64,000 nucleotides of DNA, taken from Artemia franciscana. Taxonomy: Eukaryota > Arthropoda > Branchiopoda > Anostraca > Artemiidae. A model generated the notes under the pieces. That model saw nothing but the letters and a program-made list of their open reading frames with translations, made no database searches and was not told the DNA's origin. Location of the stretch: NCBI RefSeq assembly GCF_032884065.1, contig NC_088871.1, positions 47,007,172-47,071,171 on the forward strand, in the 5' to 3' direction. Within the stretch, counting starts at the first letter, position 1, and every line of letters starts with the position of its first letter. Shown in pieces: positions 23,681 to 63,193 of the stretch. The position numbers and the translations under genes were made by a program.

Positions 23681-24515
23681 ATTATAACCCTATAAACAAA
23701 TGTTTTTGCGTATAAACATATTATAGCCCAAAAACATATTTTTTGCGTGTGGATTGTAATGTTGCAGTCACTGGTCAGTTAGGTTGTACTGTCACATTAC
23801 AGGTTTAATATAAATAGTGCATGATTGAAATTGCCTATGTTTGGTTCATTTCAAATCCAAAGAAGTAATATATTTGTGCTCAGGAACTTTTTTACCTTCT
23901 CTGAGATTGTTTCTTTAAAGGTTGGAGAATATGTTGGAATTAGTGGATTTGAGATAAAAATTGAATTATATTTATGCTAAAATGTTTGAAAATGTATTCT
24001 AAAATAGTTTTTTGGCATAGGCCAGACAGAAATTAGTTGAAATGCAGTTTAAAGCAGGCTCAACACTGGCTGTATCTCCCCATGAAAAAATTATTTCAGA
24101 ATCTTATGAAATAAACGATGTCAAATTAAAAAATCGTAAATTAGTTAAGCAAAAGTGTTTTTTTTTTCAAAATTCATTACAAAAGTTCCGTTGAATTTCA
24201 TTGGGTAAAAATATGTATATGTTGAAGCATCTCTTAAGTATTTTTACTTATTTGTTTTGACAGCTTGCATGAAAAGCGTAAACTCAAGAGAACTTCAAAT
24301 ACCTTTGTGCTTTTTTACTATCTTATGCAGTCTATATTTTGCTATATTTATTTAATTTTTGGACCAATGTTATTCCTTTTATTTTTGCATGTTTTTTTGT
24401 CTTTGCTTGACATAAGAAGCGAATTAAAACTGCTGGAGCTTATGATGGGCTTCTTGAAATAAATGTTATCTTATGACTAGATTACAAGCAAGCTTTAATA
24501 TAAGTAAAAACCTAT
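23681..24515 (+). other. MON1 5' flank and probable intron
   Basis: Because MON1 coding begins just inside an exon, a 5' untranslated exon must lie somewhere upstream. I cannot locate its donor or a promoter with confidence. The sequence is AT-rich and shows no domain-bearing frame. Confidence 0.35.
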
Positions 24516-24531
24516 TTACCTTTTATTTCAG
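24516..24531 (+). promoter_or_regulatory. 3' splice site before the MON1 start codon
   Basis: A pyrimidine-rich tract TTTACCTTTTATTTCAG ends in AG at 24,530-24,531, and ATG follows two bases later. This is a good metazoan acceptor and implies a non-coding first exon upstream. It also argues that the MON1 copy is a normal spliced gene and not a processed retrocopy, because an intron acceptor would not survive retroposition at this point. Confidence 0.65.
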
Positions 24532-24533
24532 CA

Positions 24534-25931
24534 ATGGATATTCCTGTCATTGAGGAAGCCACAGGCTCAGAACCTCTTGAAGAAGGTGGAGACCAACCAC
24601 TTGAACCACTAAGTTTGACTGAAGCAGATGACGTTGTCAAAGACACTATTGAACAACAACTAGCTGATACTTCTATCAGCTATCAAGACAGCTCACTCCC
24701 TGTTAGCTGGAAAAATGCCAAAAAGCATGTTTTTGTTTTAAGTGAAGCGGGGAAGCCAATTTATTCTCGGAATGGGGAGGAAGAGGCCCTTGTTACATTA
24801 TTTGCTGTCATGCAGGCAATTTTCTCCGTTGTTGAAGATGAAGGAGATTCTGTACAATCTTTCAAAGCAGGAAGCTGCTTAATCGTCTTTCGAAAGCAGG
24901 GACCTTTAATATTTGTTGCTGTTTCAAAAGGTGCTGAAAGTGAAGCACTATTAGCAACCCACCTGCATTATGTATACAATCAGATACTAACAGTACTTAC
25001 TTCAAACCATTTGGCTAAAATATTTAATGAAAGGCGTAATTACGATTTAAGACGACTGCTTTCAGGCTCTGAAAGACTAATCAACAGCTTATTGAATTAT
25101 ATTGAAAGTGATGCATCAGTTTTATTAAATTCGATTGTCTATTTAACTATGCCTAGTTCTGAAAGGGACACTGTTTCTAATGCTATATCCAGTACATTCC
25201 ACAAAACAAAAACGGTTGTTTTTGCTATTCTTATGGTTAATAATCGATTGGTAACTATTGTTAGGATGAATAAATATCTCCTCAAAGTGACAGATTTGCA
25301 TCTAATTTTAAATTTGATCAATTCAACAGAGAGTTTCAAGGCTGCTGAGTCATGGACCCCAATTTGCCTCCCTGATTTTGACTGCTCTGGATTCCTGCAT
25401 CTTTATGTGTCGTATTTAAAAGAAGGCTTTCCTATTTGTTTAGCTTTGATAACAACTGATCGAGATTCATTTTATAAACTTTCAGACGGCAAGTGTAGAA
25501 TTGTCGAAAAACTTGAGAAAAATAATATGATAGAAAATATTATGAAGCATTATTCTGAACCTCCTAACTTTCTGAAAGGGGTCGACTCTTCTGATGTAAT
25601 TCACTTTGTTTACAAAAATCAGAGTCTTTCACAAGCTATTATTTCAGAATATGGTTTATCTTACAGAACTGAAGAGGACAAGCAAGAAATTTTGAATAAC
25701 TATATAAGTATATATCATAATATAACAACGACCTCTAGACATCATAAACTTTTGCTGAAAGGAGATAATAAGGAAATAACAGTTGGATGGAGGACACAGT
25801 CTTTTGAATTGCTTGCTACTTTTATTCCGTTATCTACCAAAGCTCAGGTTGTCTGTGCTATTAATAACTTATTGAAGTGGATTAAGAAAGAGGAAGATAA
25901 AGTTTTTCAGTTACAAGCTCCCTCATTTTAA
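24534..25931 (+). CDS. MON1: MON1, vacuolar fusion protein (Rab7 exchange-factor subunit)
   Basis: The 465-residue frame begins at ATG 24,534 and ends at TAA before 25,932. An acidic N-terminus (residues 1-60) is followed by the hallmark block KHVFVLSEAGKPIYSR (64-79), the start of the first longin domain. Two further longin-like regions fill the middle and C-terminal half, and the end carries FELLATFIPLSTKAQVV and LLKWIKKEED, typical of MON1. In animals and yeast, MON1 pairs with CCZ1 to load Rab7 with GTP on endosomes during the Rab5-to-Rab7 switch. Animal MON1 proteins are usually somewhat longer, with a longer acidic N-terminus, so this copy is compact but has the complete domain set. The whole coding region sits in one exon, which is unusual for an animal MON1. 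No frameshift or internal stop is present. Codon use is AT-rich like its surroundings. Confidence 0.93.
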   Translation: MDIPVIEEATGSEPLEEGGDQPLEPLSLTEADDVVKDTIEQQLADTSISYQDSSLPVSWKNAKKHVFVLSEAGKPIYSRNGEEEALVTLFAVMQAIFSVVEDEGDSVQSFKAGSCLIVFRKQGPLIFVAVSKGAESEALLATHLHYVYNQILTVLTSNHLAKIFNERRNYDLRRLLSGSERLINSLLNYIESDASVLLNSIVYLTMPSSERDTVSNAISSTFHKTKTVVFAILMVNNRLVTIVRMNKYLLKVTDLHLILNLINSTESFKAAESWTPICLPDFDCSGFLHLYVSYLKEGFPICLALITTDRDSFYKLSDGKCRIVEKLEKNNMIENIMKHYSEPPNFLKGVDSSDVIHFVYKNQSLSQAIISEYGLSYRTEEDKQEILNNYISIYHNITTTSRHHKLLLKGDNKEITVGWRTQSFELLATFIPLSTKAQVVCAINNLLKWIKKEEDKVFQLQAPSF

Positions 25932-42010: not shown

Positions 42011-42377
42011 TGGGAACATTTTTTTGCGGGGCCAATTTTTCACAGAGAGGGGGAGGTAGAACCCGGGAAAAATTTTGAGGAGAACTCTGGCATGATCTGA
42101 ATTTTCTTTTAAATTGAAGTCTCTTCTTTAAATGAAAGCATACTAAAAATAAATTTTCAGGCGGAATCTTCTTGAAGAAATTTTCAGGGATTTTTTTTTT
42201 TTTTTTTTAACAGGAATGTAATTGTTTGGGATGGATATTTCTGCCTTGGGGAAGGGGGGGGGGGGTATTTACATGGGAGGAACTTTGCACGGAGGGATTA
42301 TTCGTGATAGGCTAGATTTTCCATTGATGGAGTGCCGGATTTTCTGGCATTATTTAAAAAATGACTAGAAAATAAAA

Positions 42378-42708
42378 ATAAATAAAATTTTCCAACTGAA
42401 AGTAAGGAGCAATATTAAAACTTAAACGAACAGAAATTACTATTTATATGATAGGGGCTGTCCCCTCCTCAATACATCACTCTTTACACTAAAGCTTGAC
42501 TCTTTGTCCCAATTCTTTAAGTAAGACTCCTGAAAGACAAGGGCGCTTAGTTAGAATAATAAGAAGTTTTTTTTAAGTACTAACAAACTTTAGCGCGAAG
42601 AGCGAGGTATCGAGAAGAGGCATCTCATATACAGAATAGTTTCTGTTCGTTTAAGTTTTAATGGTGCTCCGTACATTCAATTGAAAAAACTTGTTTTCTT
42701 TATTTAAT
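42378..42708. repeat. Long-hairpin module, family D, complete copy
   Basis: The left arm 42,378-42,500 and right arm 42,580-42,708 are reverse complements over about 125 bp: TCCAACTGAAAGTAAGGAGC and ATTAAAACTTAAACGAACAG on the left pair with CTGTTCGTTTAAGTTTTAAT and GCTCCGTACATTCAATTGAA on the right. The inner part CTCTTTACACTAAAG pairs with CTTTAGCGCGAAGAG with wobble and mismatches. The loop is about 80 bp. The same module occurs at 61,925-62,180 and 62,455-62,710, and half of it at 48,450-48,600. It is non-coding. Confidence 0.7.
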
Positions 42709-43485
42709 TTGATAAAGAATCGAAATCGGAAATCCTGTCACATCTGTGACTGGTATGTGATATCGGCGCGAGATAAATTTTGAGTATCGTTCTTTCACTA
42801 AAAAAAGAAAGAAAAAAAAAACATCCAAGAAATGAGAATATTCAACGACAATATCCAATAATCAAAGGAAATCACCTAATGTTATATATTTCAACTATCG
42901 TCATCTATCTAACTGTAAACAATATCGAAAATCCTTAATGATTTTAAATATACTAGAAATAAGTTGTGGGTGACATAAAGAAGGTACCTAGGTTTTGGGA
43001 AATTTTCAATAGACTGTGCTGCAGTTTGAAGCTGTTTTTTGGAGCCACTTTCTTTGGTTAAAGCAGAAATCTCACAATTATCCGTTTTATTGCCATCTAA
43101 TGCAAAGACAAATTAGTTCTGATAGAAAGCACTGTTTAAACTGACTAAGAGAGAAAAGAACCAAATGAAGTTGTAAATTGATGAAGGCGGATCAGAGAAA
43201 TTATTTATTGTAACGAATGATAAGGCTGTGACACAAGTAAGTTTCGATACCTTTACAGAAAGTCTGAATTTAAAGCTGGACTCAATCCTCCGATATCAGT
43301 CTGAACTTACAAGGAACTTGACTGTATGAACCCTGAGATTATGGGGCTGAAAACCCACTCTTCCTCCAACGAGAGTGAAATTTCATCTCTTGAGAAGGAT
43401 TGTATTCTTTAAAAGGTTCGGTGTGATGAGCTCGAAAAAAGTTACTAGTACTTTGAAGTTAAAGAAAGACAATTAAGTCATCAAT
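42709..43485. other. Mad intron, no recognised feature
   Basis: AT-rich non-coding sequence. Confidence 0.4.
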
Positions 43486-43933: not shown

Positions 43934-44312
43934 AGGTAAAGAGGTAGGTGAAAGAGGTGATGCGTTAATGACTCGTGTTATACAAAGAGGTGCAAAATGT
44001 CTGGCTAGAGGTAAAAAAAGGACGCTTATCTCGACTGGCAGAAACATGAATAGTGTTTAAATATTATTTTTGAAACAAGTAGTGCGTTTTTTATGCAACT
44101 TTTCATATCGGTCTGACATCAGAATAAAGTACAGTGAGATATGGTCCGTCTATTGATGAGGAATGTCACGAGTGTTTTTGCTATGTTACAACTGAATTGG
44201 TCAAACAATTATATTTATGTATCTATAGATACATATATAGATAATATCTATATATGAATGTATACTTAATATGTAACATATGAATGTAAATATATGAATG
44301 TAATATATAAAT

Positions 44313-44686
44313 GGTAGGCACAACACTTGACTGGGTAGAGAATTTAAAGTGCCGAAACCCTATAGGCAAGTGTATTCTCCTGATGAGCCCTTGTGTTGGG
44401 TTGTTGCCTCTGAATTATTTGTCTTTACTGTTTTTATTGTTTGGTAAATGACGACTTATACTTATTGACGACATGACTGCCTGTCCATGGATTATTCTTT
44501 ATAGTTGATTGTGTATGGCTATTCTGTTTGACATATGTGATTGTATGGATGAGTAGGGTTAAGGCCTCATTCAAGTGCTGGTCTATATTAATCACTAATT
44601 TAAGAAAACAGTCTTCCTTTTCTCCTTTTGTCTCCTTTTTTCATGGGTTTGCGCTGTTGCATTGGTGATTTCTCTTTTCGTTATAT
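44313..44686 (+). repeat. Left direct repeat (pseudo-LTR) of the Naiad-type element
   Basis: This 374-bp repeat starts GGTAGGCACAACACTTGACT and ends TTTCTCTTTTCGTTATAT. It matches the right repeat at about 95 percent by eye, apart from short indels in a TCTGCATTATTTGTC-like simple stretch. Both copies contain CCGAAACCCTATAGGC or TCGAAACCCTATAGGC followed by TCCTGATGAGCCC. CTGATGA and GAAA are hammerhead-ribozyme core words, but I could not build a full stem II and GAAA in the right order. Confidence 0.85.
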
Positions 44687-44943
44687 TATTCCAGGTTGGA
44701 TCCAGTGCTGGTGGAGAATTTTTTTTTAGTTTTCTCCCCGACAGACCTTTACCCTGGTCCAGATTTTTAACCTAATATTGTTAATTATTGGTGAGATGGC
44801 ACTTATGCATGTTTCATGTTTTCATGAAACAACTTTTTTTTTCTTCATGTTTATGTATTTATTGACCTATTGACCTTGGCATGTTTTTTGGACTTTGATT
44901 GTTGGATTTTGATTTGATTTGGATTTATTTTCAAAAATTTTTA

Positions 44944-47697
44944 ATGCAACAAAATACATATATTAGCCTCGGAACTCGGAACGATTTTTTGAAAGTTGGT
45001 AAGTGTAAGAGTCGTTGTTTTCTTTGCCAAAATTATTTTATCCCACGGACTTCTGTTAAGAGTACATTGTATAATAAAAATTTTGCATGCAAGTTACGTG
45101 GTAATGTTAATTGTAAAACAACCGATGTAATTTACCTGTTAGAATGTAATAAATGCTGCCTACAATATGTGGGGGAAACAACTAATAATATATATAAAAG
45201 ATTTTCTGGACACAAGACAACAGTTAATAAAGAAAAAACTAATAACTATCTAGTTCAACATTGTAATAATGGTACGTGCTGCATATCAGATATAACTGTC
45301 ACAATTTTAGAAAATTTAGAGTTAGAACATTTAAATAAAGAAGAGAAGAATAATAGACTACGTAAACAGGAGGATTTCAAGATCCATACTCTTGGTGCAG
45401 CTTATCCTTTTGGGCTAAATGATCATGTAGCAAAATATGGTGACATGTCTCATGTTGTTGTTAAATGTATTGATGGTTTTATGGACCATCCTTCTTTTAA
45501 TTGTCCAACTAAACGTAAAAAACGATCGAGAGGACATAGGAAAAACAATAGAAAAAATGAATTAGATTTACAAATGCTTTCTATAGATCTATGCCAGCTA
45601 CTTGAATCTAGGGGTATGATTTCTGTAATAAAATGTCTAAATAATTTATCCAAGAGGAATTTAATCAAACTTTTCTGGATTGTTAAGAATAATACAACTC
45701 TTGAATATAATTTTAAAGTAATATGCGATACAATTTGCATTCTAACTAAAACGAAATTTATTTCAAAAAAGAAAAAGTTTGATAAGATTGGTAATAGGGA
45801 CAACAGATTATATTTACCTATTAATTTTACTTGTAAGCAGATTGAAGATATTAATTTACCGAAGATTTTAAATCAGCGGGATGTGAAACAGGCCCTTCCT
45901 AGTAATTTGAATTATAATGATAGTCCAGTTTTAACTTATAAATTTTCAAAAACTATTGGGCAAATGATTTTTAATTGTAATTTAATACTTAAAAGATTAG
46001 ATAGTGATATAAATTGGAAACCGGTTTGTAACTATAAGCAAATTGGCCCATTTGTAAATCCCACTTACAAACATGTTATAACAGGGGACTTGTCAATAAT
46101 AAAACAAGATGATCTTCAAATTATAATGAATAAAGGGGTTAATTTCCGTCTTTCTCATCATCTGAAACCACCGAGTGTTCTTGATAGCTTGGAAAATGAT
46201 TTTGATTTATTTATTGATAAGTGGTGTAAGAAAGATAATAAAAATAAAGAGAGTTTTCAAAGTTGGAAGAATTTAATTATTAGTAGAATATGAAATAAAA
46301 TATATTCTAACTTAAAAAATAGTAACACTAAATCATTATTTTATAATGCTAAGATAAAACAAGCAATTCCTAATATACAGAATGAATTTGTAATTGTGCC
46401 GGTGGATAAAGCTAATAATAATTTTGCCATAATTTGTCAGAAGCTGTATTGTGATATCTTAAAAAGGGAGTTATGCACAACTAATGTTTACGAAAAGGTA
46501 AATTTAGAGGATGAGAATTTAATCGAAAAGACTGAAGAAATACTTTTTAATATTAAAATAAATGACAATGATAAAAAGTTCCCTTTCCTATATTGGACTG
46601 TAAAATTTCATAAGAATCCCCCTAAACCACGGTTTATTGCTGGAGCAGCTAAATGTCCAACCCGCATTGCTGCTACTGACCTCTCTTTAATTTTAAAGGG
46701 AATTATAAATAAACTTAAAACCTATTGTTCTGGTATTAAAAATTTTCAAATTTTAATCCATATTGGAGTGTTAATAATTCACTGCAGGTGATAGATTCTT
46801 TAACAATGGTTTCAGCTAAAAGAATTGAGTCTTTTGATTTTGCGACAATGTATACTAATTTATCACTTAATGTTGTGTTAGATAATTTAAAAACGGTTAT
46901 CAAGAAATCTTTCCTCTTATCTAGTAAGAGGTTCTCAAAAATAGACACTTATAATAAAAAAGCTATATGGACAAATTGCTTTTAAGACTACAGTTAAATT
47001 GAGATGTTACAGCTTGGATATGATTTTTGATATATTAGAATTTGTTTTATATAATACTTATATAAGATTTAATGGTAATTTGTACAAGCAAAACGTGGGA
47101 ATTCCCATGGGGGGGGGGAATGCCAGCCCATTTATAGCTGACTTATTTTTAAGTCAACTAGAATATAATTATATGATGGATAAGAATAATCCCAATAATT
47201 TAAAACATGTTTTGTCAAATAATAAAAGATATTTAGATGATATTTTGGTCTTAAATTGTAAGGATTTCATTGATATTTCTAAAAATATATATCCATCAGA
47301 GCTTACTCTTGAACCTAGTCATGGCGCTGGTCTTGAAGATCATTTCTTAGATTTAAATATTAATATTTCTGATAATAATAAATTAAGTTTTAAAATGTAT
47401 AATAAAACGGATGATTTCGATTTTGAAGTGATTAATTTCCCATTCCTTGAAAGTAATATACACTCAAATATCACATATTCGGCGTTTTTTTCACAGTTGC
47501 TTCGATATGCAAGGATTTGTAGTAATTATATTGATTTTAAAGATAGATGGAAAATCTTAAGCCAAAAATTGATATTAAGAGGTTTTTCTGTAAATAAATT
47601 AACTTGGCAATTTAAAAAATTCAGTTTTCATTATAACGAACTTTTAAATAAATACCAAAAGAATTATCTGGAAATACTTAGGGAAATTTTTCATTAA
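44944..47697 (+). pseudogene. Naiad-type polyprotein: GIY-YIG endonuclease plus reverse transcriptase
   Basis: The first ATG in frame is at 44,944. Residues near the start hold a Cys cluster (GKCKSRCFLCQNYF), then the GIY-YIG core DVIYLLECNKC and LQYVGETTNNIYKRFSGH (about 45,124-45,213), and the LGAAYPFGLND block typical of this group. The RT follows: PVDKANNNFAIIC (about 46,399), FPFLYWTVKFHKNPPKPRF (RT1-2), SFDFATMYTNL (motif A, near 46,830), GIPMGGGNASPF (motif B) and the catalytic RYLDDILVL (47,227-47,253), then LEPSHGAGLEDHFLDLNI. The lesions are few: TGA at 46,291-46,293, a one-base frame change near 46,745, a stop at 46,983-46,985 and a change back to the first frame before 47,000. Catalytic Asp residues are intact. 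This points to recent activity followed by mild decay. Confidence 0.85.
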
Positions 47698-48019
47698 ATT
47701 TGTAGGTTCGCGAAAAGTTGATGCAACGCCATCTATTTTGTGAATTGTGTATCTAAATGAGCGGATTTTTCAAAAATAGCCACATGGTACTGATGAAATA
47801 TGTAATTATTTTAGTTCATTCAGGCTTTTCGCAAAGAGTTAATATTTGTGATTTGGTAAAATTTATCACACTTAGATTACCTACTGCTGCTAAACAGAGG
47901 AATGTATTAACAGGGTGAGCTTGTTTTAATGTTACTTGGTTGTTCTACATTTGTTAGTTTTTTTATAGGAATATATTTTGGGGGTGATACCTGACACGGG
48001 GATACCATAGGTATTCTGT

Positions 48020-48400
48020 GGTAGGCACAACACTTGACTGGGTAGAGAATTTAAAGTGTCGAAACCCTATAGGCAAGTGTATTCTCCTGATGAGCCCTCG
48101 TGTTGGGTTGTTGCCTCTGAATTATTTGTCTGCCTGTTTATCTGCATTATTTGTCTTGCCTGTTTGTCTGCATTATTATATGACTGCCTGTCCATGGATT
48201 ATTCTTTATGGCTGATTGTGTATGGCTATGCTGTTTGACCTATGTGATTGTATGGATGAGTAGGGTTAAGGCCTCATTCAAGTGCTGGTCTATATTAATC
48301 ACTAATTTAGGAAAACAGTCTTCCTTTTCTCCTTCTGTCTCCTTTTCTTTTTTTTAATGTGTTTGTGCTGTTGCATTGGTGATTTCTCTTTTCGTTATAT
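48020..48400 (+). repeat. Right direct repeat (pseudo-LTR) of the Naiad-type element
   Basis: This 381-bp copy pairs with the left repeat, offset by 3,707 bp. Slight differences include a TCTGCATTATTTGTCTTGCC expansion near 48,128-48,175 and a CTTTTTTTTAATG stretch near 48,350. Its end abuts GATGGATACTTATCTAACTT, the first part of a short duplication seen again at 48,740. Confidence 0.85.
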
Positions 48401-48433
48401 GATGGATACTTATCTAACTTCCCTTTTGGTCTA

Positions 48434-48737
48434 TTTTCTTTTAAGTTCTATAAAAACTTTAGCATGAAGAGCAAGGTATTGAGGAGGGGTCAACCTCCCT
48501 CATTTATGTAATAATTTCTATTCTTAATTTTCAATGTTGCTCTTTACTTTCAGTTGAAAAAAAATTTTCTTTTTTTTAACTTAATTTCTGATCGTTTTTT
48601 AAATAATCTGATCGTTTCATGAAAAATTACTCATGGAGTTACACTGGTTTCATGAAAAATTACACTGGTTCAAAATCATCTTAACCAATGTAACGCTCAA
48701 GGATCTTTACCAGTGTAACGCTCCATTAACAGATGAA
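48434..48737. repeat. Insert flanked by a 36-bp duplication, with half a family D hairpin
   Basis: ATGGATACTTATCTAACTTC with CCTTTTRGTCTAT occurs on both sides (about 48,402-48,433 and 48,742-48,775). The interior holds the right half of the family D hairpin module (48,450-48,600) and a second inverted pair TGGAGTTACACTGGT / ACCAGTGTAACGCTCCA (48,634-48,650 and 48,709-48,725). The long flanking duplication suggests insertion into or repair at the LINE locus. Confidence 0.55.
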
Positions 48738-51490
48738 GGATATGATGGATACTTATCTAACTTCCCTTTTAGTCTATATTCAACGGTAGGCAAGTGTGGT
48801 AGAGTTTATGGAGGGGCTCTGAGGACAGCTTTCGCTAATTGCCGAGATTTACATGGTAGTTTGAATTTTATTACTTTGCTTTGGCATGATGACAAAATTA
48901 CCATTTTGGGTCTATGAAACTTTTCTTATAAATGATAATGAAAACCTTTTAAAGTGTATTGGTTATGATTTTTCTTACAGAAATAGAATAACACGATCAG
49001 GTGGAGGGCTAGGATTTTCTGTTCAAAATGGGATCCCATGGGTAACTAAGAAGGAATTGTCTAGTTTTAACAACGAAATGATTTTTTGAAAGTCTGTTGA
49101 TTGAGGTTATGGTAAATACAAAAAAAATACTTGTTCTGTAATATATCGGCCACCCTCTGCGTCAGTCCCGGAACTCTTGGACATATATGAACAGTTTTTA
49201 GATGAGATTGATGAAAATGGAGATAATTTCGTGTTTATGGAAGATTTTAATCTCGATATCCTGTCTTATGATAATATAAATTATGAGCTGCGTAATTGAT
49301 AAACCCGAGAGAAATCGCGTGGTTTTCTGTGTTTAAATTTTGCAGAATCGTTGTTTCCGTCATGTACAATTCCTACAGGAATATCAAAGCAAACTGCAAC
49401 GTTATTAGATAATATTTTTACTTCAATTAATCTTTTCCAAACACGAGTTCTTCTAAATGATGTGAGTGATCACTGTGTTATACTGCCTGATCTGTGCTTA
49501 AATTATCGCACTTAAAATGTGATGAATATTAGAAAGAGACAAATTAGTAAAGTTAATATTTTTAATCTTAAAAATAAGTTATCAGGAATGGATTGGACTT
49601 CTATTCTGGAATCAAAGTGCCCCAAAGAGGCTACAATGATGTTCCTCGAAAAATTTCAAAATGATGAAACGTGACAATTCTGAAGCGTTAGACGGTTTTT
49701 TCTTCTAACCCCATGAAAGTAGTTATGCCCGGTATTACAATTGTATTTACACATATAACAAATTTAATATTTCAGACTAGAGTTTTCCCACTCCTTTTAA
49801 GGTTTCAAAAGTTATTGCTCTACATAAAAGGGATGACCGTAATAATACGTCTAATTACCACCCAATTTTAATGCTGTCTGCGTTTTCTAAAATTGTAGAA
49901 AGAGCGTTGTATCATCGGATGTATAATTTTTCTTGAAAAGTAGAATTGTTTTCAAAGTTTCAATTTGGTTTTCGAAAGGGACATGGCACTGAGCATCCTA
50001 TGATTATTATTAACCAGTTTGTGAGTGATTGTCTTGACAAATTGCTGCAAGCCTGTTCCTGGACATTTGAAAAGTGTTCGACTCAATATCTCATTTGCTT
50101 TTATTTTCTAAGCTTAATAATTCGGGGGTTCGTGGGAAAGCATTGGACTTAGTAACATCTTATCTTTCTGAGAGAAAACAAGTTACTGTAATTACTAATT
50201 CTGCTTCTTCTTTCCTTCCACTGTCGTCATCGGTTGGTGTCCCTCAGGGTTCAATTATGAGCCCTCTTTTCTTTCTTATTTATATTAACGATCTGTGCTT
50301 TGCTACAGCCTCCTCTTCTCTGGATACACAGTTTGCTGATGATACAGCTGGTTCTGTGTATGGTAAATCTTTAAATGAGCTTCAAATAAATATTTCCCAT
50401 ACATACAGTCATATTTCGAAATGGATTGATGATAATAAGCTTTTGCTTAATAAGAAAAAACTAAACTTATTATTTATTGTAGAGGTGAGTGCAGGTTCCC
50501 AAAATTAACTAACATTTGCGTTATGCTTGAAGACAGTTTATCGTCTATTGAAACAGTGAGAAGTATTCGTTATTTAGGGGTGGCTATCGACGAGAATCTT
50601 CATGGAAGGGTCACATCAATGTTGTTCGTGCGTAAGCATCACGGGGCGTTGGTATAATAAACCGGTTAAAACATTTAATTCCTTACTCAGCACTTTGGTC
50701 ATTTTCTTTCATTTTAGTATAGTCTCATTTTGATTATGAGGGATTGGTTTACGTAAATACGTTTCAGTCTAATCCACTTCAAAAGATACAAAATAAGGAT
50801 CCTCGTGCCCTTAAGTTATTTCTATCGTCTCCTCCCCTTTTGCAAAATAGATCAATTAAAAAATCGTTATTTAATGTTGTGGATATTTCCCCGATGAGTC
50901 TTAGCGTTCAGCCTTCTATATTTTTCTTAAAATATTTTAGTTAAATTCGATCGTGGAGATCTACCTAAATATTTTTATTTAATGAACGTTATGTCTCAAA
51001 ATGTCCATTTCCACTCGATCTGGATCTCGTCTATTAATCCCTTTGCCAAAATATGTGAGGTCAAAATTTACAGTGCAGTATATGGTTCCTTTGATTTGGT
51101 CTGAATTTGTTGCATCTATAGATGTAAAATTGTCCTGCGATTAGATCTAGGCTCCGAACGAATTAACAACTTATTTTTTGTGTAGAATGGTGTCTTGTAT
51201 TTATTATTTTATGATTTTTTGGATATGAACTTTCTGCACTCCCTGCCCACTGTTAAGCCTGATAATTGGTATTATTAAGTTAGTATTGTCTCGAATGAAC
51301 GTGTGTTTGACAGTAGGTGGGAGTGACATGTCAAGCTTATTTCTTTAATAAGACAAAAAAGGCAAGAATAGTCGTGTTTACTTCAGTAGTATGATGTATT
51401 GTTTTTTTTTCCGTTGGTATACGAGCATGCTCCCCCCCCAACGGAAAAAATGTGTATTTTATTGCTATTGTAATAAAGAACATTGAACCT
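48738..51490 (+). pseudogene. CR1/Jockey-like LINE, endonuclease and RT, broken
   Basis: Plus-strand frames give an endonuclease (ILG.xETFLINDNENLLKC, then RNRITRSGGGLGFSVQNGI, then VIYRPPSASVPELLDIYEQF and NFVFMEDFNLDILSYD). They then give an RT: LFSKFQFGFRKGHGTEHPMI, VFDSISHLLLFSKLNNSGV, SSVGVPQGSIMSPLFFLIYI and DTQFADDTAGSVYGKS. GVPQGS and FADD are motifs B and C. A tail reading IETVRSIRYLGVAIDENL follows. More than ten stops or frame changes interrupt it. The 3' end is near TTGTAATAAAGAACATTGAA (51,467-51,486). The first Gly of the usual GDFN endonuclease motif is replaced (MEDFN), and the Mg-binding Asp is kept. Confidence 0.8.
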
Positions 51491-53138: not shown

Positions 53139-55110
<1,972 letters not shown>

Positions 55111-57065: not shown

Positions 57066-57328
57066 TAAATAATAATAATAAAATAAATAAATAATACATT
57101 GTGCTCACATCGCTCTTTACTTAGGTAGCTCTGTTGCGCTGCCTATGATTAATGAGCGTCTTTTATTTTCAAGCAATATTTTGAATCAAAATCCAGTTTC
57201 CATTAAATAGACCTAGGTTACCCAGGGAAAATGATGGTGGGTGAAGTAGGCTAGCTGATTCTAAGCTAGCAGGCCTACTAAAGATAAAACTTCCGTTACC
57301 ATCCCCTGTACTGTGGACTATCTGACAA
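57066..57328. other. Mad intron, spacer between repeat family C and satellite B
   Basis: An AATAATAATAAAATAAATAA simple stretch begins near 57,070; otherwise no feature was recognised. Confidence 0.4.
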
Positions 57329-59548
57329 GACAAATATTGAGCCGTTTTGTGTCAGACCAATTACCCACTGCAGAAGAGTTTGTGAACCATGAGGAGCAGA
57401 ATCAGACTAAAGATTTAATTTGAAAGACAAATATTTAGCCGTTTTGTCAGACCAGTTACCCACTGCAGAAGAGTTTGTGAACCATGAGGAGCAGAATCAG
57501 ACTAAAAATTTAATTTGAACGACACATATTGAGCCGTTTTGCGTCAGACCAATTACCCACTGCAAAACAGTTTGTGAACCATGAGGAGCAGAATCAGACT
57601 AAAAATTTAATTTGAAAAACAAATATTGAGCCGTTTTGTGTCAGACCAATTACCCACTGCAGAAGAGTTTGTGAACCATGAGAAGCGGAATCAGACTAAA
57701 ATTTTATTTGAAAGACAAATATTTAGCCGTTTTGTGTCAGACCAATTACCCACTGCAAAATAGTTTGTGAACCATGAGGAGCAGAATCAGACTAAAAATT
57801 TAATTTGAAGACAAATATTGAGCCGTTTTGCGTCAGACCTATTACCCACTGCAGAAGAGTTTGTGAACCATGAGGAGTAGAATCAGACTAAAGATTTAAT
57901 TTGAAAGACAAATATTGAGCCGTTTTGCGTCAGACCAATTACCCACTGCAAAATAGTTTGTGAACCATGAGGAGCAGAATCAGACTAAAAATTTAATTTG
58001 AAAGACAAATATTGAGCCGTTTTGCTTCAGACCAATTACCCACTGCAGAAGAGTTTGTGAACCATGAGGAGCAGAATCAGACTAAAGATTTAATTTGAAA
58101 GACAAATATTGAGCCGTTTGCGTCAGACCAATTACCCACTGCAAAATAGTTTGTGAACCATGAGGAGCAGAATCAGACTAAAAATTTAATTTGAAAGACA
58201 AATATTGAGCCGTTTTGCGTCAGACCAATTACCCACTGCAAAATAGTTTGTGAACCATGAGGAGCAGAATCAGACTAAAAATTTAATTTGAAAGACAAAT
58301 ATTGAGCCGTTTTGCGTCAGACCAATTACCCACTGCAGAAGAGTTTGTGAACCATGAGAAGCGGAATCAGACTAAAAATATATTTGAAAGACAAATATTG
58401 AGCCGTTTTACGTTAGACCAATTACCGACTCCAGAATAGTTTGTGAACCATGAGGAGCAGAATCAGACTAAAAATTTAATTTGAAAGACAAATATTGAGC
58501 CGTTTTGCGTCAGACCAATTACCCACTGCAGAAGAGTTTGTGAACCATGAGAAGCGGAATCAGACTAAAATTTAATTTGAAAGACAAATATTGAGCCGTT
58601 TTGCTTCAGACCAATTACCCACTGCAGAAGAGTTTGTGAACCATGAGGAGCAGAATCAGACTAAAGATTTAATTTGAAAGACAAATATTGAGCCGTTTGC
58701 GTCAGACCAATTACCCACTGCAAAATAGTTTGTGAACCATGAGGAGCAGAATCAGACTAAAAATTTAATTTGAAAGACAAATATTGAGCCGTTTTGCGTC
58801 AGACCAATTACCCACTGCAAAATAGTTTGTGAACCATGAGGAGCAGAATCAGACTAAAAATTTAATTTGAAAGACAAATATTGAGCCGTTTTGCGTCAGA
58901 CCAATTACCCACTGCAGAAGAGTTTGTGAACCATGAGAAGCGGAATCAGACTAAAAATATATTTGAAAGACAAATATTGAGCCGTTTTGCGTTAGACCAA
59001 TTACCGACTCCAGAATAGTTTGTGAACCATGAGGAGCAGAATCAGACTAAAAATTTAATTTGAAAGACAAATATTGAGCCGTTTTGCGTCAGACCAATTA
59101 CCCACTGCAGAAGAGTTTGTGAACCATGAGAAGCGGAATCAGACTAAAAATTTAATTTGAAAGACAAATATTGAGCCGTTTTATGTCAGACCAATTACCC
59201 ACTGCAGAAGAGTTTGTGAACCATGAGGAGCCGAATCAGACTAAAGATTTAATTTGAAAGACAAATATTTAGCCGTTTTGTGTCTGACCAAGTACCCACT
59301 GCAGAAGAGTTTGTGAACCATGAGAAGCGGAATCAGACTAAAGATTTAATTTGAAAGACAAATATTTAGCCGTTTTGTGTCAGACCAATTACCCACTGCA
59401 GAAGAGTTTGTGAACCATGAGAAGCGGAATCAGACTAAAATTTTATTTGAAAGACAAATATTGAGCCATTTTGCGTCAGACCAATTACCGACTCCAGAAT
59501 AGTTTGTGAACCATGAGGAGCAGAATCAGACTAAAAATTCAATTTGAA
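57329..59548. repeat. Satellite B: about 23 copies of a 97-bp unit
   Basis: The unit is GACAAATATTGAGCCGTTTT, GCGTCAGACCAATTACCCAC, TGCAGAAGAGTTTGTGAACC, ATGAGGAGCAGAATCAGACT, AAAAATTTAATTTGAAA, which is 97 bp. Variants differ at a few fixed places: CAGAAGAG, CAAAATAG or CAGAATAG; GGAGCAG or GAAGCGG; TTGCGTC, TTGCTTC or TTGTGTC. The order of variants around 58,024-58,600 repeats at 58,603-59,180, so about six units form a higher-order repeat of 579 bp. It lies wholly in the Mad intron between 54,925 and 63,866. Confidence 0.92.
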
Positions 59549-61924: not shown

Positions 61925-63193
61925 AACAAAAGTATGATATACTTCGTATATGAAAGGGGCTGCTTCCTCATCAACGCCCCGCTCTTTACGCTAAAGTTTG
62001 ACTCTGTCTCTCAACCCTTCTTTATAAAACAGTAAAAAACTTTAGCGTAAAGAGCGAGGCGTTTATGAGGAAGTAGCCCCTTTCATATACGAAGTAATTT
62101 ATGTTCGTTTTAAGTTTTAATGTCACTCCTTGCTTTCAGTTAAAAAACTTTTTTTTTATTTAATTTCTGAACGTTTTTGAATCAATGCATGTTTTGATCT
62201 TGGCTCTCCGCAGAGGAATAATTAAAACGAAATTTGCATATTTATCTTGTTTGGCTAAATGGCTTTCTCATAATTTTGATCGATTGATTTTGAGAAAAAA
62301 TGAGTTGTGGAGGAAGCCTAGTTGCCCTCCGATTTTCGGTTAATTAAAAAGGCACCTAGAACTATTAATTTTTTACGAATCTTTTTATTAGTAAAAGATA
62401 TACGTAACTTATAAATTGGCTTACGTAAAGAACTTTTATATTCTCATGTTTTTATTACATATATGAGGGGGTTCGCCCCCTCGTCAGTACCTCGCTTTTT
62501 ACACTAAAGCTTAAATTTTGTCCCAATTCATTAAGAATGACCCCTGAATCACAAAAGCCGTAGAATAAATAGTTGAAATTACTAAAAATATCTTACGTAA
62601 AGAGCGATGTAATAGGAGGAGGTGAGCCCCTCCTACTACCTAATCCCTCCAATAATTTCTGTTCGTTTTAAGTTTTAATGCTGCTCCTTACTTCCAGCTA
62701 AAAAAAAACTTTTTTATATTTATTTTTTCATTGTTTTATTTATAAGTAATGCTAGTAAATCCTGCACTCCCTTCATGGAAATTTTCTTCCCCCATGACAA
62801 ATTCCTCGATGGAAAGTTCCCCCAGCATATCCCCTTCTTCTCAGCCCCTTCCCCCAACCAAAAAATCCTCCTGAAAACGCCTGTACACTTCCCAATAACC
62901 ATTACTACATATAAGCACTGGTCAAAGTTTTTAACTTGTAGCCCCTCCCACGGGGACTGTGGGGAGTAAGTCGTCCCCAAAGACATAGTTATAAGGTTTT
63001 TCGACTACGTTGAATAAGATGGCTATCTCAGAATTTTGATCCGTTGACTTTGGGAAAATAATTAGCGTGGGAGGGAGCCTAGGTGCCCTCCAAGTTTTTT
63101 GGTTACTTAAAAAGGGCACTAGAACTTTTATTTCCGTTAGAATGAGCCCTCTCGCAACATTCAATGACAACTGGGTCGATACGGTCACCCCTG

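Follow-up and report, generated by a model that had tools for sequence, protein, structure and literature searches.

A window of 64,000 nucleotides from Artemia franciscana (contig NC_088871.1; "the window" hereafter means this whole stretch) contained, at 44312-48403, a single Penelope-like element (PLE): two direct repeats of ~380 bp (pseudo-long terminal repeats; pLTRs) flanked a broken open reading frame (ORF), in which a GIY-YIG endonuclease (EN) preceded the reverse transcriptase (RT). It is probable that this copy is an inactive member of an N-terminal-endonuclease (Naiad-type) PLE family, of which a young lineage persists largely intact in the host genome; a putative hammerhead ribozyme would belong to its likely cycle. 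An initial annotation had already proposed a PLE with permuted domain order; the hammerhead core in each repeat, the common 3' end and the TA-microsatellite targets described below go beyond it.

Structure of the window copy

The following features were assigned (strand in parentheses):

44220-44311 (no strand): tandem repeat, rich in TA but not purely TA, next to the left end of the element
44312-48403 (+): whole PLE (pLTR-ORF-pLTR), inactive copy, from the direct repeats and 92.5% nucleotide identity to the relative L001 (see below) across 44703-48355
44312-44689 (+): left pLTR, from the direct-repeat comparison and pLTR matches in the host genome (best 40 of 2,017 candidates)
44944-47697 (+): single ORF, from ATG at 44944 to a TAA ending at 47697; broken here, intact in other copies
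45127-45351 (+): GIY-YIG endonuclease domain with C..C..H..H residues (Pfam PF01541; CCHH by eye)
46027-46035 (+): CxC site of the linker, reading C-N-Y in this copy
46294-47697 (+): RT in several frame pieces, with the motifs DKANNN, SFDFATMYTNL, GIPMG, YLDD (47230-47241) and FLDLNI
48019-48403 (+): right pLTR, its end marking where the insertion stops at its 3' tail, from the direct-repeat comparison and the tail-end survey

The two pLTRs were identical at 332 of 378 aligned bases, with 7 additional gap columns. PF01541 matched residues 77-151 of the frame at 44899-46293 (E = 1.1e-4) and also the L001 protein (E = 1.8e-5), while the RT motifs of the window copy were recognised by eye in translated frames up to 47697. 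These results confirmed three claims of the initial annotation: a GIY-YIG domain upstream of the RT, RT core motifs including YLDD, and two long direct repeats. Its count of about two stops and two frame changes held only in part: relative to L001, two frame-changing single-base indels were found, whereas the TGA at 46291 was the only in-frame stop. The two sequences further differed by two indels, of 9 and 3 bases, that preserve the frame. The linker read C-N-C in L001; of 30 genomic copies fetched, 29 had VCNCK. In P0001, the EN was located at residues 62-137 and the RT motifs at 486-803. Sequence searches of the PDB gave no significant match.

Intact relatives and the family in the host genome

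L001 (JAGXLU010000084.1; 3,724 bp), the sole relative among 14 pattern matches in GTDB contigs, carried one frame of 921 codons, EN and then RT. Identity between the window copy and L001 was 95.9% in the coding region and 85.2% in the 3' untranslated region (UTR), and the ratio of nonsynonymous to synonymous substitution rates (dN/dS) was 0.32, suggesting that the ORF has been under purifying selection. L001 is filed as part of a Halanaerobiales metagenome-assembled genome (MAG; isolate GSL_CB2_7), yet resembles a contig of an animal retrotransposon; contamination of the bacterial MAG in GTDB is probable. IMG/VR scans for relatives or for the ribozyme found no relative.

In the host genome (1.27 Gb), the best 50 of 7,295 first-look candidates were scored in the search with the 919-aa protein, and the best 40 of 2,017 in that with the pLTR; because only the best candidates were scored, these scans do not give the true copy number. 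All 50 protein matches were 99-100% identical, and 48 of them had no stop. The search for intact copies recommended in the initial annotation thus yielded dozens. Among the fetched loci, 29 of 30 encoded 918-919 aa, and for 22 ORFs, each encoding 919 aa, the pairwise DNA identities were 98.9-100%, from which the family appears to be young. Three pairs among the 50 matched places were 3.7-3.8 kb apart, head to tail, and sequence of an upstream unit reached the limit of the reference or of the stretch in 28 of 48 mapped copies. The PLE-type organisation, with pLTRs and (partial) tandem units, is therefore present here.

Motif-pattern searches of the host genome for divergent Naiad families gave 0, 1 and 6 matches. 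Two of the six were read: L085 was a chance match, and L086 belonged to the same family as the window element; the single match (L063) was left out. In the open literature searched, Artemia together with Penelope brought up nothing but one shrimp-genome paper.

Domain order relative to a canonical PLE

In a search of the host genome with PF01541, the best 150 of 1,778 candidates were scored and two places, L083 and L084, were read. Both belonged to a canonical PLE family that shares this genome, with RVT_1 at 399-570 and GIY-YIG at 740-804. In blastp, the L001 protein and the canonical RT shared 71 identical residues in 284 columns (E = 2e-10), and the endonucleases of the two also aligned (E = 0.007), the domains being in swapped order. 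Since the RT is homologous to that of an RT-then-endonuclease element, the domain order, as judged from this alignment, is permuted relative to the canonical PLE. Motifs A and B were separated by 88 residues in L001 versus 67 in one canonical PLE, as an insertion in the fingers would give (the AlphaFold model was unusable; see below).

The initial annotation had named, as one of two findings that would refute a permuted element, that the GIY-YIG part belongs to a separate upstream element. The window copy, with its broken frame, could be read as such a pair (a canonical or EN-less PLE plus an unrelated GIY-YIG fragment), but L001, like 48 of the 50 scored genomic matches, had EN and RT joined in one uninterrupted frame. 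The probability left to two elements is negligible, and this reading was rejected as refuted by the intact copies.

Canonical PLEs, represented by Anolis Poseidon (excerpt of PMC11167929) and by L083/L084, are similar to the present element in RT homology, GIY-YIG domain, pLTRs, tandem units and a tail at a fixed site; they differ in the C-terminal endonuclease and the shorter A-B spacing. Their hammerhead has the classical order, as published for Anolis (same excerpt) and as judged only by eye for L083. In the latter, CTGAAGACGGCCCTTGGACATAGGGCCGAAATATCTACAG, located just upstream of the canonical ORF (L083:500-900), looked like a classical-order hammerhead hairpin; it received no Rfam call and did not match the ribozyme descriptor. 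Five GIY-YIG matches among the best 150 were spaced ~2.9 kb apart at G000:C17:23289952-23301756, with L083 inside, which suggests a head-to-tail array of canonical units.

Probable placement in the Naiad clade

Craig et al. reportedly described, in 2021, a Naiad clade of N-terminal-EN+ PLEs with the order EN-linker-RT, said to include selenoprotein Naiads. The clade is characterised by an N-terminal EN with CCHH, a CxC linker, a longer A-B spacing, an RT with an insertion-in-fingers domain, pLTRs, a bias to microsatellites and an animal host. The present element shared the EN-linker-RT order, the CCHH endonuclease (by eye), CxC, pLTRs, tandems, microsatellite targets and many copies in an invertebrate, and fits the clade as described; it differs in having a hammerhead core in a non-circularly permuted order and no selenocysteine. 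This assignment was made by clade features, which leaves some room for a permuted PLE from outside Naiad, either Chlamys-like or permuted independently. Such an origin is nevertheless very unlikely, given the CCHH endonuclease and the CxC linker in intact copies; the Chlamys endonuclease is not known to have CCHH.

A selenoprotein Naiad, in which the in-frame TGA would encode selenocysteine and not reflect damage, might be considered from the fact that this TGA is the only in-frame stop of the window copy in the aligned codons. L001, however, had arginine at this position, 48 of the 50 scored matches were free of stops (one had a single TGA), and no selenocysteine insertion sequence (SECIS) was among the Rfam matches. 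Selenocysteine is hence hardly credible here, and was rejected for this family.

Insertion ends and targets

The fetched loci and the window together gave 94 tail anchors: 52 ran on into a unit's 5'UTR, and the other 42 were insertion ends. At all 42 tail-bearing ends the element stopped at one position, give or take a few bases. This position lies ~437 nt from the start of the unit and 260 nt upstream of the ATG; the anchor sits just before it, so that ends lying earlier were uncounted. A TA run of at least 16 followed 25 of the 42 ends, versus 0.52% of random window positions. The window copy ended at the common site (48403) with no TA run there, and its left flank was TA-rich. In Anolis Poseidon, a "tail" marks internal RT initiation (excerpt of PMC11167929); the common 3' site resembles this tail, and by analogy RT initiation may occur there.

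At L029:1000-1510, two insertion ends of the permuted family were found in succession, each followed by a TA microsatellite. In full units the tail site runs straight into TTATTCCAG|GTTGG (window 44684-44700), where, as judged by eye, an intron in the 5'UTR could plausibly have its 3' splice site.

Hammerhead core in the pLTRs

Within 70 nt, each pLTR of the window contained GGGUA^GAGAAU, CGAAACCC and AUUCUC-CUGAUGAG, i.e., every part of a hammerhead core (cleavage site, GAAA and CUGAUGA), with blocks S, G and C arranged 5' to 3':

44333-44400 (+): left core, S-G-C order; site block GGGTA^GAGAAT at 44333-44343, predicted cleavage at 44337/44338
44353-44360 (+): G block of the left copy, around CGAAACCC
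44374-44387 (+): C block of the left copy, ATTCTC-CTGATGAG
48040-48107 (+): right core, predicted cleavage at 48044/48045

Stem I is GAGAAU:AUUCUC, stem III GGGU:ACCC, and stem II GCC:GGC in the young lineage; the left window copy had only 2 of 3 pairs in stem II. The same S-G-C order, a non-circular permutation, defines hammerhead type SGC, which was validated in vitro and comprises 583 predictions (Eckert et al. 2023; excerpt of PMC10085705). According to this excerpt, none of its RNAs came from genomes of known organisms, except for a GCS candidate. The core CUGANGA/GAAA/UH is also common to both. The linker between stems I and II is 4 nt here (hand count) versus typically 3 in the published type, and the putative helix that joins these stems on their outer sides lies, by hand count, ~64 nt downstream of the cleavage site, versus 64 and 66 nt. 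Unlike the published type, the present core, whose activity is a prediction, sits in an animal retrotransposon. In the open literature searched, that paper was the only one found on type-SGC hammerheads, and none was found on a hammerhead with Naiad and Penelope.

We consider it rather likely that the pLTR is a genomic, animal-retrotransposon home of a non-circularly permuted (type-SGC) hammerhead, with rearranged blocks, which is intact in the most recently spread lineage. Alternatively, the resemblance may be due to chance, and the start of the pLTR may be an ordinary nested hairpin (GGGU:GCCC, GAGAAU:AUUCUC and UGSC:GSCA) with another role or none; this appears less likely. Conservation argues against chance: the invariant positions and stems were retained in 61 of 63 young copies (stem I 6, stem II 3/3, stem III 4 or 5 pairs). 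Stem II had 3/3 pairs in all 63, although the label "young" uses letters that include part of stem II; when copies were instead grouped by their best BLAST query, 63 were again young, all with the same stem II letters. Frequent young variants were A-U to G-U in stem I (16 copies) and a stem III lengthened by one pair (10 copies). A fourth helix, CCAGUGU:AUGUUGG (7 bp), occurred in 62 young copies, placed as in the published type. Furthermore, the core is on the sense strand of a pLTR, and an Anolis PLE and others carry hammerheads (excerpt of PMC11167929).

Shuffling pointed in the same direction. In 200,000 shuffles per pLTR, the invariant positions and stems in S-G-C order recurred once for L001 and 8 times at the looser grade of the window; at the strict grade, any of the six block orders was obtained 13 times per 200,000 for L001. 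The descriptor matched only the two pLTR sites in the window (loose setting), and at the strict setting L001 alone; when the window was shuffled 400 times and both strands were scanned, 13 loose S-G-C matches (5 with a stem I of 6) and 2 strict ones were obtained. All 86 descriptor matches in 295 kb of fetched loci were S-G-C, these loci having been selected for carrying the permuted family, with a few overlaps. Because the motif was noticed before testing, the shuffle figures overstate significance somewhat.

Several results weigh against the explanation preferred here. As regards the hammerhead, the Rfam scan matched no hammerhead family in the element. Stem II was imperfect in the older lineage, which includes the window copy: 23 of 30 copies had stem I of at least 6, stem III of 4 and only 2/3 pairs in stem II, and the remaining 7 scored worse. 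The fourth helix was 5 bp in the window and old copies, and was equalled in 3.6% of shuffled segments. The comparison covered only two lineages (the young and the older one), 11% apart in the pLTR. Left ends were mapped from 49 sequences (L077 had no match, and 28 reached the limit of the reference or stretch), and none of the 20 mapped ends lay 5 nt or less from the predicted cleavage site, the nearest being at +31; the window copy and L007 started at the first bases of the pLTR, not at the cleavage site. The nested hairpin itself folded in ViennaRNA at -24.8 to -28.6 kcal/mol in three copies of the 99-100-nt region, an alternative and not an energy comparison, as the program cannot represent the pseudoknotted S-G-C fold. 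In this hairpin, a one-base slip preserves the UGCC:GGCA pairing of the window lineage as UGGC:GCCA in L001. As regards the element, Pfam RVT_1 did not match the permuted RT (window, L001 protein), AlphaFold on the single 919-aa sequence gave a predicted local distance difference test (pLDDT) score of 32.7, and the right end of L040 was located elsewhere, with no tail anchor.

A further helix, ACACUUG:CAAGUGU, which changes in step with L001, was set aside as part of the ribozyme because, by geometric reasoning, it is incompatible with coexisting stems I and III; it is possibly an alternative fold.

Proposed cycle and significance

In the proposed cycle, tandem units would be transcribed through the pLTRs. 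The N-terminal GIY-YIG domain, if active as its sequence predicts, would cut AT-rich DNA, often TA microsatellites, and reverse transcription would begin at the fixed internal site in the downstream pLTR, giving the common 3' end. Second-strand synthesis with 5' truncation would leave partial tandems. The type-SGC hammerhead at ~+24 of each pLTR probably trims or separates tandem transcripts. Cleavage at +24 of the downstream repeat would, however, strip the RT start from the template, so that cleavage would have to be partial or serve another step. Insertion of Poseidon in vitro does not require the ribozyme (excerpt of PMC11167929).

Should the hammerhead be genuine, type SGC, with no known host in the excerpt of PMC10085705, would thereby have an identified host, strand and location, as well as a role that can be tested. 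The presence of permuted and canonical PLEs in one genome, with dozens of near-identical intact copies and common 3' ends, makes PLE integration directly testable. Naiad (N-terminal-endonuclease) PLEs have reportedly been described as having no canonical hammerheads. On balance, PLEs with permuted domains seem not simply to have lacked the hammerhead of canonical PLEs, but to carry a block-rearranged one, which would qualify the reported view that they are hammerhead-free.

Other features of the window

Immediately to the right of the PLE, a 42-bp direct repeat (48397-48438 and 48740-48781) encloses ~300 bp that partly match 42347-42710 and 62033-62823; this arrangement adjoins a long interspersed nuclear element (LINE) fragment with RVT_1 at 50071-50508. 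An uninterrupted frame of 475 codons at 24504-25931 contained all three longin domains of MON1/FUZ/HPS1, and would represent an intronless MON1-like gene or a retrocopy. Satellite arrays were found at 57327-59548 and 53383-54121, both with a 97-bp unit but with different consensus sequences.

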